The translations under genes and the position numbers were made by a program. The notes beneath the pieces are model-generated. The model saw only the letters and a list, made by a program, of their open reading frames with translations, had not been told where the DNA came from and did no database searches. Below are positions 15,605-30,345 of a DNA stretch of 64,000 nt, piece after piece. Positions within the stretch are counted from its first letter, which is position 1, and each line of letters opens with the position of its first letter. Source of the stretch: Herbiconiux gentiana (GTDB lineage Bacteria > Actinomycetota > Actinomycetes > Actinomycetales > Microbacteriaceae); NCBI RefSeq assembly GCF_024978135.1, contig NZ_JANTEZ010000002.1, forward strand, positions 558,001 through 622,000, written 5' to 3'.

Positions 15605-15623
15605 CCCTCCACGATACGTGGCG

Positions 15624-15657
15624 GATCAGATATCGCCAAGGAGCCAAGTATCTGATC
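15624..15657. promoter_or_regulatory. Candidate HxlR operator (perfect inverted repeat)
   Basis: GATCAGATA (15624-15632) and TATCTGATC (15649-15657) are perfect 9-bp arms in the divergent spacer between HxlR and the XRE-NB-ARC gene. A further GATATCGG follows the right arm. Confidence 0.65.
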
Positions 15658-15758
15658 GATATCGGCTACGCCGGGTAGCGCGGTGGGTGTCGGTCATCGG
15701 TATCCTGGCCCTACACTCTGCGGAAGACCCGATACAGGTGCACGCTCCTGGAGGAGAG

Positions 15759-18074
15759 ATGAGTCAGGACACGATCTCCGGCCTGTTGCGCAACCTGCGA
15801 CAAAGCGCGTCCCTCACGCTCGAGGAACTGTCGGAACGATCCGGTGTCAGCGTCAGAGGCATCAGCGACATCGAGCGCGGCGTGTCCGCTGCTCCGCGCA
15901 GAAGCACACTGGCAGCCTTGGCCGCCGGGCTCGACCTCGACGGCGACGATTCCGAGTCGTTGTTGGTGGCTGCTCGCCGAGCGAGGACCGTCGACTCCGA
16001 TCTCCCCTCCGCTCTGCGGCCGTCGCGATTGAATGACTTCACAGGGCGCGAGCGAGAACTGACCGAACTCGACGCGATGTTGGCGGTCGCCTCTCCCGTC
16101 GTGGTGATAACCGGGCCAGGCGGCTTCGGAAAGACGACTCTCGCCATCGAGTGCACTTCGCACCACGCGCCGGCGGAGGGATTGGTCTTCGTCGACCTCG
16201 CGGGCCAGGGCCGGCCGCCGCTGTCGCCGCTGGAAGTGGTGCAGTCGGTGCTTCGGCAGACCGACGAAGATCTGGCCGACCCCCCTACCTCCCTTACTGA
16301 AGCGGTGGCGCGATGGGAGGTGGTCGCACGGCTCCGCCAGCCGACGGTTCTGCTCGACAACGTCGCGAGCGAAGACCAGGTTCGCCCGATCCTTTCGGCG
16401 CTCGTGCGGGGTCCGATCATCCTGACCTCGCGGAGAACTGTCGCGGGGATCACCGCCACCGGACGCCTGACCCTCGATTCTCTCGAGCCGCCGATGAGCG
16501 TCAAACTCCTGGGCCGCATCATCCCGGAATCGCAGCGTGGACCGACTGACCTGCAGGAACTCGCAGCGTTGTGTAACGGAGTGCCTCTCGCCCTCCGGAT
16601 CGCGGGAAACCGCGTGGCGAGCCGGCCCGCCACATCTGTCCGGGACTACGTGGACCGCATGCAGTCGGAGGAGCGAAGGCTCGGCCTCCTCGTCGCAGGC
16701 GATCTGTCGGTCGAGACAGTCCTCGCGGTGTCCTACGACGAGTTGGATGCGGGCACTGCGGCACTGTTCCGGGCATCGTCGATCATCGACGGTCTCACCT
16801 TCGACAGCAGGATCGCCGCCGCCGCGTCGGGGCAATCGCATTCCGACGCCGAGATGCGACTGGAGAGTCTGGTCGACCTCGGAATCATCGAGTCGCGCGG
16901 TGACAACCGCTACCGCATGCACGATCTGCTGCGGGTCTTCGCCGCCTCTCGGCTCCGGTTGGAGAGTTCGGCCGATGAGGTGGCCTCCGCTCAGGACCGG
17001 TTGATGTACTGGCTGCTCCGCACGCTGCTCGTCGTCGTCGGGGACAAGTCGGTGGAGGTGCCCATTCCCGAGGAATGGGAAATCTTCCGTCTTGACGACG
17101 ATCCCGAGGGAGCGGATGAGCGGACGGCGCGCGCCTGGGTTCTGGCGGAGGCGGACCACTGGTGGCCGGCCGTCCGCCGCGCCGCTTCCGTCGGCGACCA
17201 CGACGCCGTGCTCCGGGTGGCCGCCTCGCTCCAGTGGAGGTCGGCGAAGTGGCACGAGTGGGGCCGGTGGCACGAGCTGAACGAACTCGCGCTGCGTTCG
17301 GCCACGGCTTTGGGTGACAAGCGCCTGCAATCCCTGCGATCGAGCCTCTTGGCGTGGACGGCGATGACCGAACTCGGCAATCCGATCCTCGCTCAGCAGT
17401 CGGCTCTCACCGCGCTCGAGATCGCCGAATCGATCGACGATGCTTACGCGTCATCGCGGGCACGCTACTTCTATGCCTGGGCCAGCCTCTACGCGGGTCA
17501 GACCGAGGGACTGGAAGAGCATCTGACCCTGGCGATCGACGGCTACGAAGAGACCGGGGCCTTCTCCGAGGCGCGGCAGGCTCGCACGATACGAGGGGTG
17601 CTTTATCGCCGACTGGGCCAGCACGAGCGAGCGGTCTCCGAACTCACCGCCGTCTTGAACGAGCTGCCGGCAGCGTTCACAGAGGACGGCGAAGACTTCG
17701 CGACGTCCTTCTCCCGCAACGTCGTGCTCGAAGAGCTGGCGAACAGTTACGTCGAGGTCGGCGATCCGGAGTCAGCACTCCGGATGGCGGATGCCCTGGT
17801 GAGCATGATCAGCACCCTCGACATGGACGTCTTCACCGCGCGTTCGCGGATCATCCGCGCCCGCGCTCTCCTGGCCGGCTCGCGGACGGACGAGAGCCTC
17901 GACGAACTCGAGAAGGTCGGCCGGGTGCTCGCCGAGTACCCACCCAACGGGCACGTGGCGATGATGCTGGTCGAAGCGGAGGCGCTGCATTCAGCGGCAA
18001 CGGGGGGAGGCGCGGTGCCAGGAGCCATCGCCGATCTCAGGGCGGAAAACCGCACGGATGATGCGAGCGGCTGA
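15759..18074 (+). CDS. XRE-NB-ARC-TPR STAND-type transcriptional regulator
   Basis: 771 aa in three parts. An XRE helix-turn-helix lies at residues about 5-62 (LRQSASLTLEELSERSGVSVRGISDIERG). An NB-ARC ATPase module follows with Walker A GPGGFGKTTL (119-128), Walker B-like TVLLDNVAS and the winged-helix part ending YRMHDLLRVFAASRL. A long helical TPR-like C-terminus comes after about residue 420. This is the AfsR/SARP-like plan with XRE in place of the SARP DNA-binding domain: an ATP-switch regulator triggered by an unknown ligand. ATG 15759 follows GAGGAGAG. It converges with the LAL regulator gene with a 7-bp gap, so two STAND regulators face each other. Confidence 0.88.
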   Translation: MSQDTISGLLRNLRQSASLTLEELSERSGVSVRGISDIERGVSAAPRRSTLAALAAGLDLDGDDSESLLVAARRARTVDSDLPSALRPSRLNDFTGRERELTELDAMLAVASPVVVITGPGGFGKTTLAIECTSHHAPAEGLVFVDLAGQGRPPLSPLEVVQSVLRQTDEDLADPPTSLTEAVARWEVVARLRQPTVLLDNVASEDQVRPILSALVRGPIILTSRRTVAGITATGRLTLDSLEPPMSVKLLGRIIPESQRGPTDLQELAALCNGVPLALRIAGNRVASRPATSVRDYVDRMQSEERRLGLLVAGDLSVETVLAVSYDELDAGTAALFRASSIIDGLTFDSRIAAAASGQSHSDAEMRLESLVDLGIIESRGDNRYRMHDLLRVFAASRLRLESSADEVASAQDRLMYWLLRTLLVVVGDKSVEVPIPEEWEIFRLDDDPEGADERTARAWVLAEADHWWPAVRRAASVGDHDAVLRVAASLQWRSAKWHEWGRWHELNELALRSATALGDKRLQSLRSSLLAWTAMTELGNPILAQQSALTALEIAESIDDAYASSRARYFYAWASLYAGQTEGLEEHLTLAIDGYEETGAFSEARQARTIRGVLYRRLGQHERAVSELTAVLNELPAAFTEDGEDFATSFSRNVVLEELANSYVEVGDPESALRMADALVSMISTLDMDVFTARSRIIRARALLAGSRTDESLDELEKVGRVLAEYPPNGHVAMMLVEAEALHSAATGGGAVPGAIADLRAENRTDDASG

Positions 18075-18081
18075 AGGGGTC

Positions 18082-20820
18082 TCAGCCGCTCTCGCTCGTC
18101 TCGCGAAGCAGTCCAGAAAGTTGTGAACGCCGGCTGATCCCCAGCTTGCCGAATGCCCGGTGGAGGTGGGCGCCGACCGTTCGGTGTGACAGGTAGATCT
18201 GATCGGCGATCTCCTTGTTCGTGAGGCCATCGGCCGCCAGGCGCACCACCTGGATCTCCTGCCCCGTCAGCAGGCGATCGATGTCAGCGGAGACCGGGTT
18301 GGACCGAGCGGAATCCACCCCTCCAGCTGCGCGGAGCTCTGCGGCGGCTCGCTCCGCGAGAGGACGGATGGACTCCGCTTCGAAGAGCCGCACGGCTTCC
18401 CAGAGCTGCGATCTGGCCTCGACGATCCGGCGTTCACGGCGAAGCCATTCGCCGAAGAAGAGCCGCGCCTTCGCGAGGTCGACCGAAGCTTTCGCATTCT
18501 CCCCCGCCTCGATCGCCGCTTCGAAGTGAGACCGTGCCTCAGGGCCATCGGAGAGCAGTCCACGCGATCGTTCCACGATCACTCGGAGATGACTGGAACG
18601 GGTCTCCTCGGCGATACGCGTCGCGCGGGCCAGCCAGGCTTCCGCCTCACGACGTTCACCCGATCGTGCCGCTGCCTCGGCATAGTCACCGCCTGCCCAC
18701 AGGGCGACCGGCGCGTTCACGGCCGTCCGGTCGAGGTGGCTGATCGTCTCCCCGTACTGTCCCTCGTTGAGGGCGAGTTGCGCTGCCGCCCACTCCGCCG
18801 TGGCCGCGATACGGGCGAACGGTTGAGGACCTGACAGATCCGTCACCACTTTCAGCGCGTCGAGAGCGAGTCCCCGCTCACCTCGGAGGGCTCTGGCGTG
18901 CGCGATCTGTGCCGCAGCCATGCCTCCCACCACGCCGAGGTCCAGATCGCGGCTGAGATGCAAGGCCTGCTCGACGTCAGCGAGACCATCGGTGATGTGT
19001 CCAGCCGTGATGCGGAGCCCCCCACGACCGCAGAGGCCCGTAGCCTCGTCGCTCGTCCGGGAGGCGGAATGGAACGCACGCGTCGCCGCATCCCACACCG
19101 TCTCGGCGGCATCCAGGTCGTTGATCTCCTCGGCGCTGAAGGCGAGACAGTTGAGGAGGACGGCGTCGGTGGGGCGGAGCCGTCTGTCGAACGCCCTGAG
19201 CGACGCTTCGACGTCGTTCGCACCGGTACCGGGTTCCATCAGGGTCAACCCGATGCCTTGGAAGACGTCGTCCCCTCCGGTCGGGACAGCCCGGAGTCCG
19301 TCGGCGATGAACGTCTTGACATCGCTCGGCTCGCCCAGGATGTACGCACGGACGGCCGCGAAGACGAGAACCTCGATCTTGTCGTCGTCGTGGGTGAACC
19401 CGGTTGCCAGTTCGGCGAGGTCGCGAGCGCTTCTGCCCTGGAATCCCGTGGTCTGGCTGAGCATCCATTCGGTCCGGGCCAGCTGCAGCACGTCGGCCTC
19501 CGACGCGACCACGGGCCCTGCCTGGTCGACGAGCTCGGCCGCGAGCGCGGGTCTTCCGGCTTGACGCGCGGCCTCGGCGGCGGCGACCAGCCTCCGCGCC
19601 CTGTCGCTGAACCCGGGGGTCAGATCGGCAGCTCTGCGCCAGGCTGCCGAGGCCTCCGTCCGTGCTCCACGGCCCTCGGCCACCCGCGCCGCCTTCTCGA
19701 GTTCGGCGGCGATGGCCTCATCCCAGCCTGACGTGGCCGCCGCACGGTGCCAGGCGGAGCGACCTGGGTCGGAGATGACGTCTGCGAGCGCTCGATGGGT
19801 ATCGGCACGGATTCCCGAGTCGGCGGCGTCGTAGAGCGCGGAGCTCACCAGCGGATGCTTGAACTCGTACGTACCACCGCGCAGCCTCAAGAAGTCCAGC
19901 CGCTCCGCCGGTATGAAGTCACGCTCGGACAGGCCGAGGTCGCCGAGCGCGGCGACGACCTCCTCGAGATCCGCGCCCTGACCGGCGGCAGCCACGAGCA
20001 TGGCTCGCCGTGCCGAGTCCGGAAGCCGATCCATCTCGGACAGGAAGGTACGCTCGAGCCGGTCTGTGATGGGCAGACGATCGTCGCGGCCTCGGCGCAC
20101 GTTCCCCTCTGATCGCGCTGTCGATGCGAACTCGGTCAGCGCCAAGGGGTTTCCGAGCGAACTGTCGAGTACGAGCTCCAGCGCGCGGTCGGGCAGGGCC
20201 GGAGCCCGCCGGAGAATCAGCTCGGCCGCGCCTGCACGATCGAGGGACTCCAGGTGCACGTGGTCGGGGAACTGGCTCGCCAACTCATCGAGGTTGCGCA
20301 CAGATCGCGTCGTCGCGAGGAGGAAAGCCCGGGTTCCGCGCAGTCGCTTCGCCAGGAACGCGATGACCTCGTGGGTCGAGGCGTCGACCCAGTGGAGATC
20401 CTCGGCGATCATCAGTATCGGGGATGCCTCGGCAGCCTCCTCGACGAGGCCCAACGCCGCCAGCCCCAGCAGGAGACGGTCTGCCTCGCCCTCGTCGGAC
20501 ATTCCGAAGGCCACCTTGAGCGCCGACGCCTGACGGAGCGGGAGAGCGTCGAGCCCTGTGAGAAGCGGCTGGAGGAGCTGGTGCAACCCCGCGAAACCGG
20601 CCGCCTCCGCGTTTCGCACCCCGGCGCACTCCAAGACTCGGAAGCCGCGTCGCTCCGCGACGAGTTGAACTGCCCACGCGAACGCCGTCTTGCCGATACC
20701 GGGTTCGCCGTCGATGAGGAGAGCTCCACCCTCACCGGCACCGGCACGCCGCAGGGCTTCGGTAGCCAAGTCGAGCTCAGCAGCACGACCCACCAGGCTG
20801 CCGTCGGCAGATGACTTCAC
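18082..20820 (-). CDS. LAL-type LuxR family transcriptional regulator
   Basis: 912 aa large ATP-binding LuxR regulator. The N-terminal AAA/STAND module has SLVGRAAELDLATEAL and Walker A GEPGIGKT (38-45), with LMIAEDLHWVDASTHEVIAFL as Walker B and sensor. A long TPR-like middle follows. The C-terminal LuxR HTH (LLTGQEIQVVRLAADGLTNKEIADQIYLSHRTVGAHLHRAFGKLGISRRSQL, last about 65 aa) is intact. The start is GTG 20820, whose bases overlap the stop of the upstream XRE gene (GTGA), so both are translated together. MalT-like activation by an inducer is expected. The inducer is unknown, though the nearby HbpS-like protein hints at a redox or heme-related cue (inference). Confidence 0.92.
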   Translation of the reverse strand: MKSSADGSLVGRAAELDLATEALRRAGAGEGGALLIDGEPGIGKTAFAWAVQLVAERRGFRVLECAGVRNAEAAGFAGLHQLLQPLLTGLDALPLRQASALKVAFGMSDEGEADRLLLGLAALGLVEEAAEASPILMIAEDLHWVDASTHEVIAFLAKRLRGTRAFLLATTRSVRNLDELASQFPDHVHLESLDRAGAAELILRRAPALPDRALELVLDSSLGNPLALTEFASTARSEGNVRRGRDDRLPITDRLERTFLSEMDRLPDSARRAMLVAAAGQGADLEEVVAALGDLGLSERDFIPAERLDFLRLRGGTYEFKHPLVSSALYDAADSGIRADTHRALADVISDPGRSAWHRAAATSGWDEAIAAELEKAARVAEGRGARTEASAAWRRAADLTPGFSDRARRLVAAAEAARQAGRPALAAELVDQAGPVVASEADVLQLARTEWMLSQTTGFQGRSARDLAELATGFTHDDDKIEVLVFAAVRAYILGEPSDVKTFIADGLRAVPTGGDDVFQGIGLTLMEPGTGANDVEASLRAFDRRLRPTDAVLLNCLAFSAEEINDLDAAETVWDAATRAFHSASRTSDEATGLCGRGGLRITAGHITDGLADVEQALHLSRDLDLGVVGGMAAAQIAHARALRGERGLALDALKVVTDLSGPQPFARIAATAEWAAAQLALNEGQYGETISHLDRTAVNAPVALWAGGDYAEAAARSGERREAEAWLARATRIAEETRSSHLRVIVERSRGLLSDGPEARSHFEAAIEAGENAKASVDLAKARLFFGEWLRRERRIVEARSQLWEAVRLFEAESIRPLAERAAAELRAAGGVDSARSNPVSADIDRLLTGQEIQVVRLAADGLTNKEIADQIYLSHRTVGAHLHRAFGKLGISRRSQLSGLLRETSESG

Positions 20821-21578
20821 ATCACGAGATTATCCTCCTGCAGCACCGTCACGATAAGACCTGCCGTGCCGGGAATCTCGAAGCTGTGGAACGATGCATG
20901 ACCGACGGGGGCACCGGCACGATCCACTCGGACCCTGCCCGCTGGATTCGGTCGGGCGTCGTGCCGCGCCCAAAGAGCCCGGAAGTCCTGATCCCGCACC
21001 GCGAGGCGCCCGACCACCTGCTGGAATCGGAGGTCATAGGGGTCGCCGTGGTAGCGCAGTTCGGCAGCGCTAGCGGCCGCCCGGGTCTCCCAGTCGGCCT
21101 CGTTCCGACTGTCCTGGGAGAAGGTCCACTCCACGAGGTTGAGACCGTGCTCGATCCGGTGATTCCTCAGCTGGCGTGCACGATCGTTCACGAGAAGCAC
21201 GTCCAGATTGCTGGAGGCGACGTACGCCGGGGTCTCAAGCCAACCGTTCAGCAGTTCTCTGACGGTCTCCGGAATCACACCGTCGTGGCTGGGACCCGAA
21301 TTCGCGACGGGGTGCAGGCTTCGCAGCCGAAGGAGGTACTGCTCCGCGTTCCGGTCGAGCCTGAGTGCGCGGGCGAGTCCGTGCAGCACCTGGTCAGACG
21401 GCTCTTTGTCGTGGCCCTGCTCCAGCCGGAGGTAGTACTCCGGGCTGATGGACGCCAACATCGCGACCTCTTCCCGCCGCAACCCGGGTACGCGTCTGTT
21501 CGACTCCCTCTGCAGCCCGACGCATTCGGGCTGCAGCAACGCCCGGCGCGCCCACAGGTATTCGCCGAGGACTGTCAC
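20817..21578 (-). CDS. XRE family regulator with MmyB-like ligand-binding domain
   Basis: 253 aa. The HTH is LGEYLWARRALLQPECVGLQRESNRRVPGLRREEVAMLASISPEYYLRLEQGHDKEPSDQVLHGLARAL (residues about 4-75). An MmyB-like domain follows (LLNGWLETPAYVASSNLDVLLVNDRARQL ... ELRYHGDPYDLRFQQVVGRLAVRDQDFRALWARHD). The GTG at 21578 has GGAGG 9 bp upstream and fits the usual family start; another GTG at 21608 would overlap the HbpS stop. Such proteins often control adjacent SDR or oxidoreductase genes. Here the gene lies between an HbpS-like sensor and a LAL regulator, an unusual three-gene cassette. Confidence 0.9.
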   Translation of the reverse strand: MTVLGEYLWARRALLQPECVGLQRESNRRVPGLRREEVAMLASISPEYYLRLEQGHDKEPSDQVLHGLARALRLDRNAEQYLLRLRSLHPVANSGPSHDGVIPETVRELLNGWLETPAYVASSNLDVLLVNDRARQLRNHRIEHGLNLVEWTFSQDSRNEADWETRAAASAAELRYHGDPYDLRFQQVVGRLAVRDQDFRALWARHDARPNPAGRVRVDRAGAPVGHASFHSFEIPGTAGLIVTVLQEDNLVM

Positions 21579-21604
21579 CGAGCGGGTCCTCCGTCTCGTG
21601 GCCG

Positions 21605-22042
21605 TCACCGCACACCGCCGGCCATACGTGCAGCGGCCGACACCGCTGCGTGGTCTTGCCCCGGCGAGCCGCCGCCGGCGCCGATGCCTCCGATCACCAC
21701 TCCCTCTGGGTCGAGGATCGGAACACCACCGGCGACGAAGGCCAGCTTCGTCGAGGACGCCGTCTCGATGGTGGCCATCGGCCCGCCCGGCGAAACCCCA
21801 CCGCTCAAGTCGGACGTCGACGCCCCGAAGTAGACAGCCGTCCGCGCCTTGGCGATCGAGCTGTCGATGGCACCGACGACCGCGCCATCCATCCTGGTGA
21901 CCAGAACCAGATGCCCCCCGCCATCGACCACGGCGATGCACGCAGGAATGCCGCTCTCCCGAACCGTCTTCATCGCCTCGTCCGTCAGTAGTCGCGCGAG
22001 CTTCAACGGGAGAATGATCGGTGAGATCACTGCCATGTCCAT
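21605..22042 (-). CDS. HbpS-like heme-binding/GlcG family protein
   Basis: 145 aa of the HbpS/GlcG (DUF336) family: AGIPACIAVVDGGGHLVLVTRMDGAVVGAIDSSIAKARTAVYFG, the PGGPM loop and the glycine-rich end IGGIGAGGGSPGQDHAAVSAA. Family members bind heme or corrinoids. HbpS of Streptomyces reports redox stress to a two-component system. No signal peptide is seen, so this copy is predicted cytoplasmic. ATG 22042 fits the family N-terminus; an ATG at 22078 is also possible and neither has a good ribosome-binding site. It is the first gene of the cassette with the XRE and LAL regulators and has a perfect palindrome upstream. Confidence 0.83.
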   Translation of the reverse strand: MDMAVISPIILPLKLARLLTDEAMKTVRESGIPACIAVVDGGGHLVLVTRMDGAVVGAIDSSIAKARTAVYFGASTSDLSGGVSPGGPMATIETASSTKLAFVAGGVPILDPEGVVIGGIGAGGGSPGQDHAAVSAAARMAGGVR

Positions 22043-22079
22043 AGTCAAAGGATGTCGGTCGGCGCTGGGTGCACGCATC

Positions 22080-22091
22080 GGTCAAATGACC
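22080..22091. promoter_or_regulatory. Palindrome upstream of the HbpS-XRE-LAL cassette
   Basis: GGTCA-AA-TGACC is a perfect 12-bp inverted repeat directly upstream of the HbpS-like gene, in operator position for a dimeric regulator. If the HbpS gene starts at 22078, the palindrome would sit immediately before it. Confidence 0.45.
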
Positions 22092-22125: not shown

Positions 22126-22626
22126 CTAGGCCAGTGAGGCGAGCTTGGCCGCGGAATCGCGATCCGCTCCGGCCCAGGCGACCAGGGTGTCTTCGGAATC
22201 CGATCCCAGAGGCATCCGAAACTGGTCGAGTCGCATGATCCCGACTCCCGGGTGTCGGATCAGGACGGTCAACTCATCGGGGACGTCGCTGTTCCGCGCC
22301 CAGGACTCGGCGAACAGCGTGCTGTTCGCCGAGAGATCGCCGATCAGACCCAGGAACCTCGCGTCTTCGGGATGGCGCGCCAACGACGACCTCAATGCGG
22401 ATGCGATCACGTCGGATTTCCGGGTCCAGTCCGGGAGATCGCGATTCGTCCGATCACTCAGATACATGTACCGCGCGATGTTCGTCCCCGGGGCGTACAC
22501 GGGATGGAGCGTCTTCGCTGCCACCGTCGCACCGACCACGTCCAGGTACCGGTCGTAAGCGATCATGGCCACCGCAGGCTGTGATTCGAGCATCCGGATC
22601 ACCGTGTCGCGAAGCGGCTCGCTCAT
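22126..22626 (-). pseudogene. MmyB-like ligand-binding domain without HTH (truncated XRE regulator)
   Basis: The frame encodes only the C-terminal MmyB-type domain: LRDTVIRMLESQPAVAMIAYDRYLDVVGATVAAKTLHPVYAPGTNIARYMYLSD ... ARHPEDARFLGLIGDLSANSTLFAESWARNSD ... GIMRLDQFRMPL. The XRE helix-turn-helix expected in front is absent, and the upstream DNA is the end of a different MmyB gene. In-frame sequence before the ATG at 22626 (DAFGVGVSP) still resembles the interdomain linker, so homology extends past any clear start. This supports truncation by recombination between neighbouring paralogues. A free-standing ligand-binding protein that modulates an intact regulator is an alternative. Confidence 0.65.
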
Positions 22627-22651
22627 CGGCGACACGCCGACACCGAAGGCA

Positions 22652-23503
22652 TCAGGCCGGCTCTCGGAGTCGTGAATCAGCCGAACCGGATGCCTGCGCG
22701 ATTCGAAGCGCGGTGATCGCATCGGCGGCACCGGATCCGGACTCCGGCAGGAGGACGGTGAGCACGTGGTCTTCGTCTCCGGTCATCGTCAGGCACTGCA
22801 CCGCGAACTCCACATGACCGAAGCCGGCGATATCCAAGCGGAGCTCGCTGCGGTCCAGCGGGGCCGCCTCGTGCGCCGCCCAGAGACGCTGGAAGTCGCC
22901 GTCTCGCATGGACAGCAGCCCCACGATGTCCTGGAAGCCGGTCGAGTGCGGGTCGCCGTAGAAGCGAAGGGCCGAGACGAACCGCCTCGCGCTTGCCTCC
23001 CAGCCGAGGTCGGCAGCTCTCCAATCCCCACCGAACACGTTCAGCACCAGATTCGACCCGGGGCGCATGGTACCCGGCACTATCGCATCGGCGAGACCGT
23101 TGGCCATGACGACGGTCTGGTTGCGGTCGGTGAGGAAGGCCGGTGTCGTCGACCAGTTCGCAAGCAGTCTCGCCAGACTCGTCTCTACGGCCCCCAGCAG
23201 TCGGGAGTGCTCCACCGGGCGGAATGTACCGGACTGGATCCGAACGAGACGGACCATGTAGCTGAGGGCGCCCTCGTTCAGATGAAGTGCGCGCGCCAGC
23301 GACTGGAGAACCTGTTCCGACGGTTGATGGCCTCTGCCCTGCTCCAGGCGAAGGTAGTACTCGGGACTGATTCCAGCGAGCTGCGCCACCTCATCCCGCC
23401 TCAACCCCTGCACCCTTCGACCGGGCATCGTGCGCATACCGACGTCTTCGGGGCGAAGCTCAGCCCGACGGGCCCTGAGGTAGTCCCCAAGCGGTGAGTC
23501 CAC
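22652..23503 (-). CDS. XRE family regulator with MmyB-like ligand-binding domain
   Basis: 283 aa, full length. The HTH is at residues about 5-76 (LGDYLRARRAELRPEDVGMRTMPGRRVQGLRRDEVAQLAGISPEYYLRLEQGRGHQPSEQVLQSLARAL). The MmyB-type domain contains LLANWSTTPAFLTDRNQTVVMANGLADAI, LRFYGDPHSTGFQDIVGLLSMRDGDFQRLWAAHEA and a C-terminal ECF-like 'FAVQCLTMTGDEDHVLTVLLPE'. GTG 23503 matches the family start. It lies directly after the MR-like/PoxB operon and could be its regulator. It is therefore one candidate for the protein that binds the shared promoter dyad at 28.9-33.4 kb (inference). Confidence 0.9.
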   Translation of the reverse strand: MDSPLGDYLRARRAELRPEDVGMRTMPGRRVQGLRRDEVAQLAGISPEYYLRLEQGRGHQPSEQVLQSLARALHLNEGALSYMVRLVRIQSGTFRPVEHSRLLGAVETSLARLLANWSTTPAFLTDRNQTVVMANGLADAIVPGTMRPGSNLVLNVFGGDWRAADLGWEASARRFVSALRFYGDPHSTGFQDIVGLLSMRDGDFQRLWAAHEAAPLDRSELRLDIAGFGHVEFAVQCLTMTGDEDHVLTVLLPESGSGAADAITALRIAQASGSADSRLREPA

Positions 23504-23584: not shown

Positions 23585-23645
23585 ACTCCATGCAGAAGAC
23601 AGGCAGTATCGACGCGTCCAGGCAGTTATCGAGCTGACTTTTTCG

Positions 23646-24737
23646 TCAGGACACCCGGTAGCGGGCGATCGCTTTCTCATCCCAGGAGATTCCGGTTCCC
23701 GGCCGGTCGGGCACAGTGAGCACACCGTCGTGGGGCCGAAGCGGATCCTCGAGCACAGGATCGGCCCAGTCGACCCATTCGAGCCAGTGCGCTGTAGGCG
23801 TCACGCGCAGGAGGTGAGCCGAGACCTCGGGGTAGAGATGGTTGGAGAGTTGGATTCCGGCTCCGTCGCTCAGGCCGGCCGCCCTCAGCCATCCGGTCAC
23901 TCCACCGATTCTCATGAGATCGGCCATCGCGTAGTGAGTGGCGCCGGACTGGAGGAATGTATAGAAGTCTCTGACCCCGTAGTAGTTCTCTCCCATCTGG
24001 ATGGGAGTCCGGATCTTGTGGGCGAGCTCACGATAGGCGGCGACGTTGCTGTAGTCGATGGGTTCTTCAAGCCAGTAGAGCCCTTGATCGTCGAGCTCGT
24101 GGCACCGCCTGATCGCATCTCCCGTGCCCAACGCCTGGTTGAAATCCACCATGAGGTTGACCCCGTCGCCGACGCCGTCCCGAACGGCAGCGATCGCTTC
24201 GAGGTCATCGCGCACGTCAACGTTCCCGAGACGGAGCTTCAGTGTGTCGAAGCCGCCTTCGGAGAGGAGGTCGGCTGCCTCCTGGGCGAGGGTATCCGGA
24301 GAATGTCGCCACAGCCCGTTGCTGTTGTACGCGCGCACGTCGCCCGCGGTGCCACCGAGCAGTTCAGCGAGCGGCAGGCGTGCCGATTTGGCCGAGGCGT
24401 CCCAGAACGCCATGTCTAGCGCCGAGATGGCTATCTGCGAGATGCCGGTCTCGCCGACGACGTTCAGTGCCTGCCTGGCTCGAGCGTAAGCGTCCAGGGG
24501 CGCCACGTCGGATCCCGTCAGCGCCTCTGCGAGATCGCGGATTTCGGCCGCGATGGCGGGCATCGCGCCGGCACGGTACGGGGTGACGTAACTCGAGCCC
24601 GTGACACCGTTGGCCAGGTGGGCGTCGATGAGCACGAGGGGCCAGGAGTCGAACCGGCCGATGGCGGCGATCACGGGCCGTCTGAGCGGTACGACGACCG
24701 TGCGGACCTTCACACTCTGCAATTTCATCCGTGTCAT
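23646..24737 (-). CDS. mandelate racemase/muconate lactonizing enzyme family protein
   Basis: 363-aa enolase-superfamily enzyme predicted to abstract the alpha-proton of a carboxylate, as in acid-sugar dehydration or racemisation. The capping domain is N-terminal. In the barrel, TLKLRLGN supplies KxR in place of the usual KxK, VDFNQ and EEPI/GENYYG supply metal ligands, and the SNHLYPEVSAHLL histidine matches the mandelate-racemase subgroup general base. ATG 24737 follows AGGA 9 bp upstream; a GTG at 24755 overlapping the PoxB stop lacks a ribosome-binding site. It is the last gene of the MRJP-LVIVD-PoxB operon. Its substrate is unknown. Confidence 0.88.
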   Translation of the reverse strand: MTRMKLQSVKVRTVVVPLRRPVIAAIGRFDSWPLVLIDAHLANGVTGSSYVTPYRAGAMPAIAAEIRDLAEALTGSDVAPLDAYARARQALNVVGETGISQIAISALDMAFWDASAKSARLPLAELLGGTAGDVRAYNSNGLWRHSPDTLAQEAADLLSEGGFDTLKLRLGNVDVRDDLEAIAAVRDGVGDGVNLMVDFNQALGTGDAIRRCHELDDQGLYWLEEPIDYSNVAAYRELAHKIRTPIQMGENYYGVRDFYTFLQSGATHYAMADLMRIGGVTGWLRAAGLSDGAGIQLSNHLYPEVSAHLLRVTPTAHWLEWVDWADPVLEDPLRPHDGVLTVPDRPGTGISWDEKAIARYRVS

Positions 24738-24751
24738 GCCGAGGCTTCCTA

Positions 24752-26485
24752 TCACGCGAAGATGCGACGCAAAGCGTTCGTGGTCGTGAGATCCAGCAGC
24801 TCTTCGCCCCGGCCCGACAGAATCGTGCGGATCGCGTAGAGGGCGAAGCCCTTGGCCTGCTGCGCCGTGATCGCCGGTGGGATCGACAGTTCCTGACGTG
24901 CTGTCATCACTTCGACGAGTGCCGGGCCGTCGTGCTCGAGCGCTTCGCGGATCGCTTCATCGAGGTCGCGCGGATCGACCACGCGGCGTCCGAACAACCC
25001 GATCGATCGGGCGACCGCCGAGAAGTCGGGGTTCACGAGCTCCGTCCCGTAGTTCACGATCCCTGCCGCCTTCATCTCGAGTTCGACGAAGTTGAGGGAG
25101 GAATTGTTGATGACGATCACCTTCACGGGCAGCCTCAGCTGGACCAGGGTGAGGAGCTCGCCGAACAGCATCGCCAGCCCGCCGTCGCCGGCGATCGCGA
25201 CGACCTGCCGCCCGGGGTGCGACACCTGAGCGCCGATCGCGTGGGGAAGCGCGTTGGCCATCGTCCCGTGATTGAACGACCCGAAAAGGCGTCTCTGGCC
25301 GTTCATCGTCAGGTAGCGGCTGGCCCAGACCACGGGAGACCCGACGTCCATCGTGAAGATCGCGTCGTCTGCCGCCGCTTCATCCAGGATCTTCGTCATG
25401 TACTGCGGGTGGATCGGGGTGCGGTCTCGGTCGTTCACGGCCAGCGCGTCCAGCGATGCCCGGGTTTTCGTGTAGTGCTTCTTTGCGCGCTCCAGGTGGC
25501 TCGAATCCGTCTTCGTCTCGAGATGCGGAATGAGCGCCTCAACCGTCTCCTTCACGGTTCCCACGAGCCCGACGGCGATGGGCGCGCGTCGCCCGAGGTG
25601 TTCCCCGCGCACGTCGACCTGCACATAGGTCTTGTCCGTGGGCAGGAATTGGCGGTAGGGGAAATCGGTGCCGAGGAGGAGCACCGCGTCTGCCTCTTCG
25701 ATCGCCTTGACCCCTGAGGCGAAGCCCAGGAGCCCCGTCATGCCGACGTCGAACGGGTTGTCGTACTCCAGCAGTTCCTTGCCGCGGAACGTGTGGACGA
25801 TCGGTGCCTTGAGGATATCTGCCACGCGCATCACCTGTTCGTGTGCACCGGCGGTTCCCGCTCCGCCGAGGATGGTGATCTTCTCCGCGCCGTTCAGCGC
25901 TGCAGCGGCATCCTTCAGCTGGACGGTGTCGGGGATCACCGCCGACTTCGTCGGAACGATGCTGCGGGGCTCGTCCAACGGCTCAGTGAGGGCGAGGAAG
26001 ACCTCGCCCGGCACGACGACCACTGCCACTCCTCGTCGCTCGATGGCCGTCCTGATCGCGATCTCGAAGATCCGAGGTGCCATCTCCGGAGTGCTGATCA
26101 GCTCCGTGTAGACGGAGCACTCTGCGAAGAGGGTCTGCGGGTGGGTCTCCTGGAAGTATTCGGAACCGACCTCGTTCAGCGGGATCTGCGCGGCGATCGC
26201 CAGCACCGGGACCCGGGTGCGCTGCGCGTCGAAGAGACCGTTGACCAGATGCGTGTTGCCCGGTCCGCAACTGCCCACGCAGACGGCCAATTCGCCCGTG
26301 AGTCCTGCCTCGGCTGCTGCGGCGAAGGCACCCGCCTCCTCGTGCCTGACATGTTCCCAGGAGATGCTTCCGTCGCGACGGATGGCGTCGACGAACCCGT
26401 TGAGGCTGTCACCGGGAAGTCCGTACACGTGGTCGATCCCGCTCGCGCGAAGCACGGCGATCATATTGTCTGCAACGGTGGTCAT
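24752..26485 (-). CDS. poxB: pyruvate dehydrogenase (quinone) / pyruvate oxidase, ThDP-dependent
   Basis: 577 aa, close to E. coli PoxB (572 aa). The N-terminal pyrimidine-binding domain has YGLPGDSLNGFVDAIRR and HEEAGAFAAAAEAGLTG with the catalytic Glu. VGSCGPGNTHLVNGL is followed by the central FAD-type domain (ITILGGAGTAGAHEQV). The ThDP site is GDGGLAMLFGELLTLVQLRLPVKVIVINN. PoxB decarboxylates pyruvate to acetate and CO2 and passes electrons to menaquinone at the membrane. ATG 26485 has GGAG 8 bp upstream; the ATG at 26491 is too close. It overlaps or nearly abuts the LVIVD gene (stop at 26488), so the genes are co-expressed. Confidence 0.93.
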   Translation of the reverse strand: MTTVADNMIAVLRASGIDHVYGLPGDSLNGFVDAIRRDGSISWEHVRHEEAGAFAAAAEAGLTGELAVCVGSCGPGNTHLVNGLFDAQRTRVPVLAIAAQIPLNEVGSEYFQETHPQTLFAECSVYTELISTPEMAPRIFEIAIRTAIERRGVAVVVVPGEVFLALTEPLDEPRSIVPTKSAVIPDTVQLKDAAAALNGAEKITILGGAGTAGAHEQVMRVADILKAPIVHTFRGKELLEYDNPFDVGMTGLLGFASGVKAIEEADAVLLLGTDFPYRQFLPTDKTYVQVDVRGEHLGRRAPIAVGLVGTVKETVEALIPHLETKTDSSHLERAKKHYTKTRASLDALAVNDRDRTPIHPQYMTKILDEAAADDAIFTMDVGSPVVWASRYLTMNGQRRLFGSFNHGTMANALPHAIGAQVSHPGRQVVAIAGDGGLAMLFGELLTLVQLRLPVKVIVINNSSLNFVELEMKAAGIVNYGTELVNPDFSAVARSIGLFGRRVVDPRDLDEAIREALEHDGPALVEVMTARQELSIPPAITAQQAKGFALYAIRTILSGRGEELLDLTTTNALRRIFA

Positions 26486-26487
26486 GG

Positions 26488-27741
26488 TCATTTCTCCCTG
26501 CTCATGCCGGTGAACTCGACGATGTCGAGGCCGGCGTTGTAATCGGTGGTGAAGGCGAGCCCGTCCTCGCGGACGTAGACGTCGGCCGTCTGGATCACGG
26601 CCCGCCCGCCCGGTCGAGGGTCGACGACGGTCTCGGGGGCGGCGGGCACGAAGGCTCCGATCTGCTCCGGCCGGAACGGGTCGGAGATGTCGAAGGCGCG
26701 GAGTCCGGCGTTCTGGTAGGTGGCGAACACGATCTCGTCGGAGATGAAGCTTCCCGGTCGGTTCTCATGGAGGTTGTGCGGACCGAAATGCCGGCCCTTC
26801 CGCGCGTAGTCGTCCTCCGCCGGAGTCGGCAGCGTCGAAATGCTGACCGGGTTGGCCGGAACGCGGATGTCGAAGATCCACACGTGCTTGAGACCGTCGC
26901 CGAGCTCGTCGGAGGTGGCTTCGTCCGCCACGACGACGAGTCCGCGGTCGGGCAGAGGAAGGGCGGTGTGCGTTCCTCCCCCGAACGGTGGTGACCAGTT
27001 GCGGTGGCTGATCCGTGTCGGATCGGAACGATCCGTGATGTCCAGCAGGGTCAGCCCCCCGTCACGCCAGGACGCGTAGGCGGTGTCGCCGGAGACGATG
27101 GCGTGGTGCAGCGCGTAGCGCCACATGCTCTCGTCCCAATCTGGTATCTCACCGGCACCGGAGTTCATTCCCGGTAGCCAGTACCGCCCCGAGAACACCG
27201 GTCGTGCCGGGTCTGCGAGATCGATGACGGCGAAGATGTAGTCGGTGAAGCCCTGCGGGAGAACGGATGCGTACGCGTAACGCCCTCCGACGTACCAGAG
27301 CCGGTGCACCCCGACTCCATCCACGGGCAGGAACGATATCTGCCGAGGGTTCCCCGGGTCACTGATGTCGTAGATGGCGACCCCGGCGCTCCAGTCCTGG
27401 GGTTCTCCCTTAACCCGGCTTCCCACCGATCCGCCGTAATAATCCGCTTCGACGTCGAATTTCTTCCAGAGGTCTTTCGCGTGGATCACCAACAGCAGAT
27501 CATCGGCCGCCTGCAGGTGGATGTTCCAGGTGTTCCGCGGTGCAGGATGGAAGCCCGCCGGCCGGGGGTTCTTGGGGTCACGGACATCGATGACGCTGAA
27601 GCCACTGTTGAAGAGGTGGCCGACGTAGACGTGGTCACGGTAGTACTGCAGCTGCATCGCATCCGGTCGCCCTCCCTGATCCGAGTGGGCGACGTGCGTG
27701 AAGCCGATCTCGAGGTCGGCCGGCCGGGGGTCCATGGTCAT
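26488..27741 (-). CDS. LVIVD-repeat beta-propeller protein
   Basis: 417 aa with at least six LVIVD-type repeats: FSVIDVRDPKNPRPAG, VAIYDISDPGNPRQIS, FAVIDLADPARPVFSG, LTLLDITDRSDPTRIS, VWIFDIRVPANPVSIS and LRAFDISDPFRPEQIG, predicting a beta-propeller. No signal peptide is seen even though many relatives are secreted. No catalytic residues can be assigned; a binding or scaffold role is likely. Its start (ATG 27741) overlaps the MRJP-like stop as ATGA and its end abuts poxB, so it is an integral member of the operon. Confidence 0.88.
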   Translation of the reverse strand: MTMDPRPADLEIGFTHVAHSDQGGRPDAMQLQYYRDHVYVGHLFNSGFSVIDVRDPKNPRPAGFHPAPRNTWNIHLQAADDLLLVIHAKDLWKKFDVEADYYGGSVGSRVKGEPQDWSAGVAIYDISDPGNPRQISFLPVDGVGVHRLWYVGGRYAYASVLPQGFTDYIFAVIDLADPARPVFSGRYWLPGMNSGAGEIPDWDESMWRYALHHAIVSGDTAYASWRDGGLTLLDITDRSDPTRISHRNWSPPFGGGTHTALPLPDRGLVVVADEATSDELGDGLKHVWIFDIRVPANPVSISTLPTPAEDDYARKGRHFGPHNLHENRPGSFISDEIVFATYQNAGLRAFDISDPFRPEQIGAFVPAAPETVVDPRPGGRAVIQTADVYVREDGLAFTTDYNAGLDIVEFTGMSREK

Positions 27742-28838
27742 CGCAGCCGCACGGGAGCCGCGTCGATCCGGGTGCGGACGATGAGGTACGGCGGCACTCG
27801 GTCCTCCGTCCCGTTGAACAAGGGCGACCGGGGCAGCTGGTTGGCGCTGAGGTAGAGGTATCCGTCGGCTGCGATCGCGAGCGTGTCCGGCCAGAGGAGA
27901 GCGGGGCCGTGGAACACCGTGGACCAACTCCCGTCGCGGCTTCGTTTGACGACCGCGGAGTGCTCGTACGCCGTGGCGTAGACGGCACCGTCGGTATCTG
28001 ATTCCAGGCCGTCCGAGGCGCCTTTGTCCCCGAGGTCGCGGATCGTCGACGCCACCTCCAGGTCGGGGAGGTCTCGGTCTCTGAGCGCCTCGGTGCTCAC
28101 GCTGTACAGACGCCGGCTGGACAGCGGGCAGTAGTACAACGTCGAGCCGTCAGGGCTGATGGCGATTCCGTCAGCCCCGACCTGGTAACCGTCGCGCACA
28201 ATTCCCTGGACAATCGCACGGAACTGGTCGCTGGCCTGGGTGCTCGCGTGGCCTCGAAGTCGTGACCACCATTCCCCCGTTGCGAGGTCGATCACGATGA
28301 GTGCACCGGTCGGCTGAGAGTCGGTGACGTAGGCGTAACCCGCCTCTCCCTGGCTGAGGTCGAATCGCACGTCGTTCAGGTAGCTCGTCGCGGTCAGTGC
28401 CCCTTCGGTCGGGTGGAGCACACGGATCACCTCACCCGAGGTGAGATCGACCTGGACGAGCTTGGGACCCCCGTCGACCCACGGCTCGAACGACGGCGCT
28501 CCCGTGTCGAGCAGCCAAAGTGTGCCGTCGGGCGCCACCACGACGCTCTGCACGGAGACCAGGTTGTCCGAGCTGGTTCCGGGGGCCCAGGCGTTCACCT
28601 GCGCGTCGGGGTAGGCCACCGCCTTGCCATCGACGATCTCCGCAACGGTGAAAGGCACGTCGTCTCCCCATCGGGGGAAGGAGACGAACACCCGCCCGTC
28701 ATCCGAGACGGTCAGACCCGTCGGCATGTTGTCCTCGAGGGCCGCGACGACCTCGTAGCCGTCGGCGACCCAGGCGCCCAACGGAAGGCTTGTCTCGTGG
28801 GACAGCAGTTCTGCACCGGTGGATGTGATCTCTGTCAT
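27738..28838 (-). CDS. major royal jelly protein (MRJP/yellow)-like beta-propeller protein
   Basis: 366 aa resembling the bacterial MRJP/L-dopachrome-tautomerase-related family: MPTGLTVSDDGRVFVSFPRWGDDVPFTVAEI, LWLLDTG, YLNDVRFDLSQGEAGYAYVTDSQPTGALIVIDLATGEWWSRL, GADGIAISPDGSTLYYCPLSSRRLYSV and ASDGLESDTDGAVYATAYEHSAV. It folds like SMP-30 lactonases but specificity is unknown. No signal peptide is present. AAGGAG lies 7 bp before ATG 28838. It is the first gene of the four-gene operon, driven by a promoter carrying the shared dyad (28874-28918). Confidence 0.87.
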   Translation of the reverse strand: MTEITSTGAELLSHETSLPLGAWVADGYEVVAALEDNMPTGLTVSDDGRVFVSFPRWGDDVPFTVAEIVDGKAVAYPDAQVNAWAPGTSSDNLVSVQSVVVAPDGTLWLLDTGAPSFEPWVDGGPKLVQVDLTSGEVIRVLHPTEGALTATSYLNDVRFDLSQGEAGYAYVTDSQPTGALIVIDLATGEWWSRLRGHASTQASDQFRAIVQGIVRDGYQVGADGIAISPDGSTLYYCPLSSRRLYSVSTEALRDRDLPDLEVASTIRDLGDKGASDGLESDTDGAVYATAYEHSAVVKRSRDGSWSTVFHGPALLWPDTLAIAADGYLYLSANQLPRSPLFNGTEDRVPPYLIVRTRIDAAPVRLR

Positions 28839-28873
28839 GACTTTCTCCTTTTCATGAGTTGCTGACAAGGGGA

Positions 28874-28918
28874 AAGCTAGGAGCGTTCGAGCGGGTTGTG
28901 ATGGCCTCCGGGGGGACA
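28874..28918 (-). promoter_or_regulatory. Shared-dyad promoter C (MRJP-LVIVD-PoxB operon)
   Basis: On the minus strand TGTCCCCCCGGAGGCCA (28918-28902) is followed after 22 bp by TAGCTT (28879-28874). A second similar dyad, TGACCCCCGGAGGATCA, lies at 28945-28929. No -35 box is evident, which suggests activator dependence. Confidence 0.65.
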
Positions 28919-28942
28919 GCTTCGCGGATGATCCTCCGGGGG

Positions 28943-29317
28943 TCAGGCTGTCGGCACGATCTCCCGGGTCGTCGATGATGCCAGCGGTGAGAGGAGATCG
29001 CCGATCCAGGCGGCTCCGATCACCGCGTATTTGTCCCTGTAGGCCCGATCGATGTCGGTGGCGCTCGGAGCGGCCACTCTCAGCACGACTTCGCGCTGCA
29101 CACCGCCGGCTCTCACGATGACGTGGGGCGCTGAGGCGGCCCGCCTGAACCAACCCGATTCGGGTCCGTGGGACGACCGGATGTACAGCGCACCGTCCAA
29201 CCCGACCACCCAGATCGGCACGAACCGGTGGGCGGTGCCGTCGGCTCGAAGGGTCGAGATCTCGAGTTCCTCCGATGCGCCGATGGCGTCGAGCTCGTCT
29301 GCGGTCCAGCCATTCAT
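28943..29317 (-). CDS. DUF2255 family protein
   Basis: 124 aa matching DUF2255: MNGWTADELDAIGASEELEISTLRADGTAHRFVPIWVVGLDGALYIRSSHGPESGWFRRAASAPHVIVRAGGVQREVVLRVA, ending RAYRDKYAVIG. The fold is thought to be PPOX/split-barrel-like, possibly flavin- or F420-binding, but the function is undescribed. ATG 29317 has GGAGAG 4-7 bp upstream. It lies upstream of the MRJP operon on the same strand and has its own dyad promoter (29350-29394), back to back with that of the chloroperoxidase-like gene. Confidence 0.85.
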   Translation of the reverse strand: MNGWTADELDAIGASEELEISTLRADGTAHRFVPIWVVGLDGALYIRSSHGPESGWFRRAASAPHVIVRAGGVQREVVLRVAAPSATDIDRAYRDKYAVIGAAWIGDLLSPLASSTTREIVPTA

Positions 29318-29349
29318 GGTCTCTCCTTCTTCGGTTGTGGATGCGCCCG

Positions 29350-29394
29350 AAGCTACGACCTCTCGCCCACCTCGTCGTGGCCCTGGCCGGGACG
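29350..29394 (-). promoter_or_regulatory. Shared-dyad promoter D (DUF2255)
   Basis: On the minus strand CGTCCCGGCCAGGGCCA (29394-29378) is followed after 22 bp by TAGCTT (29355-29350). The dyad matches 13 of 17 positions of promoter A, which points the opposite way 17 bp further on. Confidence 0.6.
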
Positions 29395-29411
29395 GTCATG
29401 CCCTGCCTGGC

Positions 29412-29457
29412 TGTCCCCGTGAGGGCCATGTGCTGGGCGGCGCCCGCTCCCTAACGT
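29412..29457 (+). promoter_or_regulatory. Shared-dyad promoter A (chloroperoxidase-TDT operon)
   Basis: TGTCCCCGTGAGGGCCA (29412-29428) is followed after 23 bp by TAACGT (29452-29457). The coding start is 60 bp further on with a good ribosome-binding site. Confidence 0.65.
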
Positions 29458-29516
29458 TGCGGTCGTCACGTCACGTCACGTCGTTGGCGGACCCCATTCT
29501 CACGAAGGAGAAAATC

Positions 29517-30341
29517 GTGCCGTACTTCACCACTTCCGAGGGCATCGAGCTCTACTACACCGACAACGGGGCCGGCCAGCCCATCGTGTTCAGCCACGGC
29601 TGGCCCCTCTCCAGCGACGCGTGGCAGGTCGAGCTGAAGGTGTTCGCCGACGCCGGCTACCGCACCATCGCCCACGATCGACGTGGGCACGGCCGGTCGG
29701 CGAAGACCTCCACCGGCAACGACATCGACACGTACGCCCGGGACCTCGCCGAGCTGATCGAGCACCTCGACCTCCACGACCTCGTCATCTGGGGCCACTC
29801 GACCGGTGGCGGCGAGGCGGTCCGCTACGCCGCGCAGTACGCGAACGGCCGTGTCGCGAAGGTCGTGACCGCCGGGGCCATCCCTCCGGTGATGCTCAAG
29901 TCGGAGAAGAACCCGGAAGGGTCTCCGATCGAGGTGTTCGACGACATCCGCGCGGGAGTGCTGAAAGACGCGTCGCAGTTCTGGATCGACCTCGCCGAGG
30001 GCCCGTTCTACGGCGCCAACCGCCCGGGCAGTTCCGTCTCGGAGGGCGCGAAGCGCGACTTCTGGCGCCAGGGCGCGCTGGTGAACCTCGCCTCGGCCTA
30101 CGACTGCGTGAAGGCGTTCTCGGAGACCGAGCAGTTCGACGACTTGAAGGCGCTCGACGTCCCGATCTACATTGCGCACGGCTCCGACGACCAGATCGTC
30201 CCCATCGCCGGAGCCGCCGAGCAGAGCATCAAACTCGTCAAGCACGGCACGCTCAAGGTGTACGAGGGTGCGCCGCACGGCATCTACGGCGACTACCAGG
30301 ACGAGCTGATCAAGGACGTGCTCGCCTTCATCAAGGCGTGA
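29517..30341 (+). CDS. alpha/beta hydrolase, non-heme chloroperoxidase-like
   Basis: 274 aa. The alpha/beta hydrolase order is clear: FSHGWPLSSDAWQ (oxyanion region), AHDRRGHGRS, nucleophile elbow GHSTGGGE (about residues 93-100), IAHGSDDQIVP (acid) and GAPHGIYGDY (histidine). This is the cofactor-free haloperoxidase/perhydrolase group, which forms peracids from acetate and H2O2 in vitro; the in vivo role is usually ester hydrolysis. Acetate made by the nearby PoxB would be a conceivable partner (inference). The start is GTG 29517 with GAAGGAG upstream. The TDT transporter follows 4 bp after the stop. Confidence 0.9.
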   Translation: MPYFTTSEGIELYYTDNGAGQPIVFSHGWPLSSDAWQVELKVFADAGYRTIAHDRRGHGRSAKTSTGNDIDTYARDLAELIEHLDLHDLVIWGHSTGGGEAVRYAAQYANGRVAKVVTAGAIPPVMLKSEKNPEGSPIEVFDDIRAGVLKDASQFWIDLAEGPFYGANRPGSSVSEGAKRDFWRQGALVNLASAYDCVKAFSETEQFDDLKALDVPIYIAHGSDDQIVPIAGAAEQSIKLVKHGTLKVYEGAPHGIYGDYQDELIKDVLAFIKA

Positions 30342-30345
30342 CGGC

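Follow-up and report, generated by a model that had tools for sequence, protein, structure and literature searches.

How does an HbpS/GlcG-like gene come to stand among regulatory genes, and which of these genes form one circuit? We address this for a locus in a 64,000-nucleotide stretch of Herbiconiux gentiana DNA (assembly GCF_024978135.1, contig NZ_JANTEZ010000002.1, positions 558,001 to 622,000), referred to here as the window. The original prediction had singled out three genes, those of an HbpS-like protein, an MmyB-type XRE regulator and a LAL regulator, and had made the HbpS-like protein a heme or redox relay for the other two. Here, we show that the run consists of five genes, XRE2, LBDo, HbpS, XRE1 and LAL, in which LBDo is a stand-alone ligand-binding domain (LBD) without a helix-turn-helix (HTH). 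Our preferred reading, which we hold with about as much confidence as doubt, is that the five genes form a LAL-autoregulated MmyB array that probably controls the adjacent catabolic run, with HbpS as catabolic cargo. The most interesting element, the HTH-less MmyB partner, lies outside the predicted trio and looks like an overlooked partner class.

The five-gene array and its conservation

The genes of the array are the following:

22652..23503, minus strand: XRE2, MmyB-type regulator with XRE HTH and MLTR_LBD (Pfam HTH_31 7.3e-11, MLTR_LBD 2.6e-25; scanned as the longer open reading frame (ORF) 23725-22652)
22126..22635, minus strand: LBDo, stand-alone HTH-less MLTR_LBD protein, 169 aa (MLTR_LBD 4.2e-25, residues 9-168)
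21605..22042, minus strand: HbpS/GlcG-like protein, 145 aa (PF03928, E 1.7e-30)
20817..21578, minus strand: XRE1, MmyB-type regulator (HTH_31/HTH_3 and MLTR_LBD, E 2.6e-20; the Pfam scan started at 21581, and the GTG start is taken as 21578)
18082..20820, minus strand: LAL, AAA_16 ATPase with GerE (LuxR) HTH, 912 aa (AAA_16 at 9-161, GerE at 851-901)

The order HbpS-like, XRE1, LAL was confirmed, and so were the two close spacings on which the original prediction was built. XRE1, expected within 26 bp of the HbpS-like gene, follows its stop by exactly that distance and has a GGAGGA ribosome site just 5' of the GTG; LAL starts inside the XRE1 stop (20820 against 20817, overlap GTGA). On the same strand, XRE2 and LBDo precede the HbpS-like gene, with LBDo starting at GTG 22635 (alternative ATG 22626), 16 bp 3' of the XRE2 stop. 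Both XRE1 and XRE2 have the MmyB/MltR layout of an XRE-type HTH followed by MLTR_LBD, the LBD of XRE1 being C-terminally shorter than in most MmyB proteins. LBDo has no XRE-type HTH, and MLTR_LBD is its sole domain match. LAL has the layout of about 900 residues with an AAA domain and a C-terminal LuxR HTH, and its P-loop reads GEPGIGKT in the translation. The third-position GC of the array genes is 0.78-0.80. None of the array regulators was named by NCBIfam above cut-off, and a PADLOC search for defence links gave weak HTH matches only.

A search of 299 genomes of the family for HbpS relatives (E 1e-20 or better) gave 17 other carriers, and the surroundings of all 17 were compared. In another species of the same genus (locus L020), the full row XRE2-LBDo-HbpS-XRE1-LAL is present in the window's order, so the array is not due to chance. 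Between the window and L020 all five genes are free of stops with dN/dS (the ratio of nonsynonymous to synonymous rates) of 0.07-0.19, dS being near saturation, which indicates purifying selection. This is the only one of the 17 carriers in which HbpS adjoins XRE and LAL genes, and none of the other 16 has HbpS beside both MmyB and LAL genes. The trio is kept within the genus only (own genome and G205, two of the seven genus members searched), and the joint conservation that the original prediction had proposed to check does not reach beyond it.

HTH-less proteins as possible partners of MmyB regulators

The structure of LBDo predicted by AF2 has a pLDDT of 93.2 and matches the ligand domain of MltR (PDB 3pxp) with Z 16.4 and a root-mean-square deviation of 3.0 over 164 residues. 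The next ranks of the fold search are PAS domains with Z of 10 and less, as expected from the shared fold.

Is LBDo a peculiarity of this array? Across the loci retrieved for XRE1, HbpS or LAL, an LBD-only gene lies within 1 kb of 31 of the 55 full-length MmyB genes. Conversely, of 42 LBD-only genes, nine of which came from the LBD search itself, 40 lie no more than 3 kb from a full-length MmyB gene. In each of the 28 LBD-only proteins of alignment A1, MLTR_LBD is the sole domain match, and in many LBD-only genes the start codon stands a short way ahead of the LBD. A tree built from 55 full-length and 32 LBD-only rows needs two label changes, compared with 26 after shuffling, showing that the LBD-only proteins are a separate lineage; two divergent full-length rows group, weakly supported, with the LBD-only proteins. 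Left out were L068 (a full-length gene parsed as LBD-only) from the 1-kb pairing and tree counts, and L091 (a short match) from the tree. L140 (full-length, HTH in another frame) was removed before the 42-gene, co-variation and residue counts, and L110-L139, used for context, stand outside these three counts. L140 itself, in the own genome at C10:138001-146000, is possibly a broken full-length copy. The window holds a second HTH-less MLTR_LBD gene at 37189-37719 on the minus strand; a full-length MmyB gene is absent from the surrounding 3 kb, the nearest one lying about 7.5 kb away.

The two kinds of protein also vary together. Distances among paired LBD-only and full-length proteins correlate with r 0.68 (35 pairs), a value reached by none of 5000 free shuffles, and nearest neighbours agree in 25 of the 35 pairs, where about one is expected by chance. 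When shuffling was confined to within genomes as a control for species history, 54 of 5000 shuffles reached r, drawn from 384 distinct arrangements with the true one included.

Residues of the domain interface are kept in most LBD-only proteins. In MltR, Arg181 and Trp210 lie at the interface with its own DNA-binding domain (PMC3406030). Mapped via the 3pxp alignment, the first is Arg in 67/68 full-length and 32/42 LBD-only proteins (Lys in five more of the latter), and the second is Trp in 67/68 and 39/42, respectively. The His that follows the Trp in 58 of the 68 full-length proteins is not kept in the LBD-only proteins.

A recurrent row of full-length MmyB, LBD-only, full-length MmyB and SDR genes was seen in this family and in another family of the order (L097, L099, L102, L115, L120, L134; L115 and L099 are one locus). 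In the window, the HbpS-like gene stands inside a row of this full-length/LBD-only/full-length type.

Taken together, we suggest, tentatively and with somewhat more doubt than belief, that HTH-less MmyB LBD proteins are dedicated co-evolving partners, that the actinobacterial MmyB regulator is often a split sensor made of a full-length subunit that binds DNA and an LBD subunit, encoded beside it, that does not, and that in this genus it is wired to LAL through a shared palindrome described below. Two observations on LBDo and its relatives count against our preferred reading of the array. The genome-controlled co-variation comes from few genomes with at least two pairs, and about 1% of the within-genome swaps reach it. 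Moreover, an LBDo counterpart is missing near the XRE2-type genes of L067, L026 and L089, so LBDo is not indispensable.

Actinomycetes carry many MmyB-type regulators, which have been put forward as beacons for metabolite clusters, yet for the most part neither their ligands nor their logic is known. The existence of a conserved HTH-less partner would account for possible failures of binding or activation assays on full-length MmyB alone, and an LBD-only protein with its full-length neighbour makes a concrete two-protein system for testing. In titles and abstract openings, with subscription journals scarcely covered, we found no publication on LBD-only MmyB partners or on an HbpS-XRE-LAL unit.

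LAL-MmyB pairing and shared upstream sites

Twelve places in the 299 family genomes matched LAL with E 1e-80 or better. All five relatives of at least 45% identity, the window's own included, have an adjacent MmyB gene, in three arrangements: MmyB just upstream of LAL (window, L020), divergent (L026), or LAL upstream of an XRE2-type gene (L021, L073). In L021, L026 and L073 the pair occurs without HbpS beside it. No MmyB gene was found in the stretches fetched for the seven relatives at 32-39% identity, which counts against a general link; the pairing is a feature of one LAL lineage of the family. A LAL scan of a collection of named genomes gave seven loci, of which L106-L109 match the HTH end only and were left out. 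There, the Kribbella LAL (L104, 38%) has an MmyB gene 5 kb away and an Actinoplanes one (L105, 37%) has none; a second Actinoplanes LAL (L103) lacks an MmyB gene nearby at 46% identity, again a point against the pairing. XRE2 relatives were found in L020, L067, L077, L073, L021, L026 and L089, and the close ones in L067 and L077 lack a LAL of this lineage and have a neighbouring STAND regulator related to that of the window at 15618-18074 on the plus strand.

Two sites emerged when the upstream regions of XRE2-type genes were compared:

22075..22091, minus strand: palindromic operator-like site GGTCATTTGACCGATGC, named LAL box here, about 33 bp 5' of the HbpS ATG
23588..23606, minus strand: second conserved site CTGCCTGTCTTCTGCATGG, upstream of XRE2, with the same pattern at the XRE2 relatives L020, L067 and L077

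The palindrome GGTCATTTGACCGATGC occurs at one place in its own genome at 0 mismatches. The form GGTCATTTGAC(C/G)GATGC, or a near form, stands 5' of XRE2-type genes (L021, L026, L089), of LAL (L021, L026, L085) and of HbpS-XRE1-LAL in the window. With one mismatch, the core is found at the same place before the HbpS operon of L020 and before the Kribbella LAL. In all, exact or one-mismatch palindromes lie upstream of LAL or MmyB genes in L020, L021 (two), L026, L085, L089 and L104. When the 350 bp upstream of LAL were examined in 19 cases, four had the core at no more than one mismatch (L021, L026, L085, L104), against a chance expectation, calculated from the fetched sequence, of about 0.004 per region. 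In L085 the palindrome precedes LAL on a 10 kb contig that carries no MmyB gene, and for this reason we tentatively assign the palindrome to LAL.

GTCATTTGACSGAWG has six exact places in 398 family genomes, and its backward-read control none; five of the six lie within about 180 bp upstream of LAL, an XRE2-type gene or the HbpS operon, and the sixth (G626) has no LAL, MmyB or HbpS-operon gene within 20 kb. An order-wide search of the related form GGTCATCTGACCGATG gave 14 places in 297 genomes, mostly within long ORFs belonging to other genes. Of the 12 that fall in other genomes, a single one (L154) lies before a LAL relative, and the second own-genome place (C11) is inside an ORF. The CTGCCTGNNNTCTGCATGG pattern stands 5' of XRE2 in the window and of its counterparts in L020, L067 and L077; with up to two mismatches allowed, the own genome has it at a single place.

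Judging from the sequence, the array likely has two promoters, one with CTGCCTGTCTTCTGCATGG before XRE2-LBDo and one with GGTCATTTGACCGATGC before HbpS-XRE1-LAL; by eye, and without a sigma-70 promoter scan, no obvious -10 element was seen behind the palindrome. XRE-LAL is probably a recurrent, autoregulated unit, and the shared palindrome gives an initial handle for testing LAL-MmyB wiring beyond the polyene antibiotic clusters. Two findings speak against so simple a scheme. The close LAL of L073 has an MmyB neighbour and no palindrome upstream. Neither the palindrome nor the second site was found upstream of the window's catabolic operon, so that it is the position of the catabolic genes from which their control is inferred.

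We propose that the LAL ATPase would bind the palindrome and control the operon to which it belongs; in sister species its control would extend directly to the MmyB gene, by analogy with PimR acting on pimM. The MmyB proteins would take up a small hydrophobic or lactone-like metabolite of the pathway in their PAS-like domain, with the catabolic promoters as their targets. LBDo could tune them, either as a heterodimer with full-length MmyB or by buffering the ligand, much as TrlR acts on TraR. HbpS may be a cytoplasmic DUF336 protein that assists the catabolic pathway, perhaps in the handling of an aldehyde or its dehydrogenase, and that landed between the regulators.

The HbpS-like gene, its catabolic company and known systems

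The genes around the array are:

23646..24755, minus strand: mandelate racemase/enolase-type acid-sugar dehydratase-like enzyme (MR_MLE_C 1.1e-55)
24752..26491, minus strand: pyruvate oxidase / ubiquinone-dependent pyruvate dehydrogenase (NF006591 895 bits, cut-off 792)
26488..27927, minus strand: LVIVD-repeat protein (PF08309 1.4e-10; start uncertain, ORF overlaps the next gene)
27738..29429, minus strand: MRJP/SMP-30-like protein, possible lactonase (PF03022 6.6e-28, residues 291-534; 5' part of the ORF probably noncoding)
15618..18074, plus strand: XRE-NB-ARC-TPR STAND regulator, convergent with LAL (in L067 and L077, relatives lie beside XRE2-type genes)

The catabolic run lies upstream of the array on the same strand, and its pyruvate oxidase and acid-sugar-dehydratase-like genes overlap by 4 bp. 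Catabolic genes recur at XRE2-type/LAL loci: MRJP in L021, L026 and L089, pyruvate oxidase and LVIVD in L021, and AKR, MFS and hydrolase genes in L026. A 1021-aa ORF (29466-32531, minus strand) was tried as a neighbour marker and rejected; it has no Pfam family and lies opposite real genes for a hydrolase (29052-30341) and SLAC1 (30346-31308), and its matches were ignored. Elsewhere in the window, an MmyB-type regulator (45041-45955, minus strand) is divergent from a short-chain dehydrogenase (46109-46948, plus strand), the classic arrangement of the family, and a protein encoded at 37859-39523 on the plus strand combines a cNMP-binding domain with a pyridine nucleotide-disulphide oxidoreductase.

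The nearest solved relative of the HbpS-like protein is EfgA (1.7e-20), followed by 2a2l (OrfY), PduOC and others, with HbpS last (2.5e-7). The heme ligand His18 of PduOC aligns with Arg17; Streptomyces HbpS has Thr at this position and yet binds heme weakly, so the HbpS-like protein may still bind heme. Just ahead of the conserved Lys the sequence is DSSIA, in which Asp and Ile may replace the Glu pair of E78XXE81, the internal iron motif that precedes Lys83 in Streptomyces HbpS. As read from the translation, without a prediction program, there is no room for an export signal, the 145 aa matching solved relatives from residue 6/7. EfgA has three proposed formaldehyde-binding residues, K57, S114 and D121 (PMC8153426), which we placed with a numbering offset inferred from the EfgA alleles listed there. 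K57 and D121 are retained (K77 and D142 of a 157-aa reading) and S114, mutated in a loss-of-function allele, is Gly. Since K57 and D121 are largely conserved across DUF336 homologues, they are not diagnostic.

In 9 of the 17 loci, the gene of the HbpS relative stands directly behind a zinc-type alcohol dehydrogenase (ADH) gene (L021, L022, L024, L029 and L034 by Pfam; L023, L027, L035 and L036 by similarity to those). It is part of an operon MRJP-ADH-HbpS-LVIVD-POX in L021, where POX is pyruvate oxidase, and adjoins an MRJP gene in L026. This company suggests that the HbpS-like gene is catabolic by association, and the protein is more likely a metabolic passenger than a heme sensor. The names 'heme-degrading' or 'redox sensor' attached to HbpS/DUF336 may mislead in these genomes.

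Could the HbpS-like protein nevertheless sense heme or redox state and signal to XRE1 and LAL by contact, as originally predicted? The 26 bp gap, the operon position shared with XRE1 and LAL in two species and the sensory role of HbpS in HbpS-SenS-SenR would fit. The closer kinship to EfgA, Arg17 in place of the heme ligand, the missing signal peptide, the preference of its relatives for ADH genes over XRE and LAL (9/17 against 1/17) and the LAL-MmyB pairs that occur without HbpS led us to reject heme or redox input as the likeliest reading, and we consider it very improbable. What stands of the predicted chain is the link between XRE and LAL, supported by the five paired LAL genes and the shared operator-like site; HbpS as its input does not. 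A cytoplasmic, metabolic variant, in which the protein is an EfgA-like aldehyde-type sensor or trap that modulates the array through a toxic intermediate, keeps HbpS in the control logic and has a real though minor chance of being right. It is favoured by EfgA as closest solved relative, the two retained residues, the dehydrogenase genes before its relatives and its place as first gene after the LAL-linked site, and disfavoured by the Gly at the position of the loss-of-function allele and by the wide conservation of K57 and D121.

The array might also be a loose island, in which unrelated MmyB, LBD-only, LAL and STAND genes were gathered by gene transfer without a common circuit. Arrangements do differ among species, the same stretch holds an extra STAND regulator, and catabolic islands are presumably prone to gain and loss. 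We think this unlikely, as every close LAL has an MmyB neighbour, LBD-only and full-length proteins co-vary, and one rare site is common to LAL, XRE2-type and HbpS-XRE1-LAL promoters. Lastly, LBDo is homologous to the LBD of the adjacent XRE2 and could be an MmyB gene decaying after loss of its HTH. Its separate lineage, purifying selection (dN/dS about 0.13 against L020), the start codons near the LBD and the well-formed predicted fold make this hardly credible, and LBDo was rejected as a pseudogene. We retain the LAL-autoregulated MmyB array with HbpS as cargo as our preferred reading.

How does such an array compare with known systems? XRE1 and XRE2 share the HTH and MLTR_LBD of the MmyB/MltR family, and LBDo is predicted to share the LBD fold of MltR. 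In S. coelicolor, 15 of the 16 members of the MmyB family are transcribed divergently from a putative target gene, SDR/MDR or antibiotic-related (PMC3406030), whereas the window's two are co-directional with an LBD-only protein, HbpS and LAL. The HbpS-like protein is cytoplasmic like the formaldehyde sensor EfgA (DUF336) and keeps two of its three proposed ligand residues, but differs in the Gly at S114 and in gene context. It has PF03928 in common with Streptomyces HbpS, which is secreted and coupled to a histidine kinase, while the window protein lacks an export signal and is tied by position to XRE/LAL genes. In PimR-PimM, as proposed here, the gene under the control of a LAL-type regulator encodes a PAS-domain regulator; however, PimR is a SARP-LAL, PimM carries a LuxR HTH, and the heptamer-repeat site of PimR is unlike the window palindrome. 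LBD-only proteins have been described singly: SCO6676 in one sentence of the MltR paper (PMC3406030), and SLCG_7083 of Streptomyces lincolnensis, which was studied alone. Both have, like LBDo, an MmyB-type PAS domain without HTH, and the excerpts at hand report no link to an adjacent full-length MmyB gene. A functional parallel may be TrlR of Agrobacterium, a regulator relative that, like LBDo, has no DNA-binding domain and blocks TraR through inactive heterodimers; TrlR belongs to the LuxR/TraR family and its activity has been demonstrated, whereas a comparable role for LBDo is a proposal.

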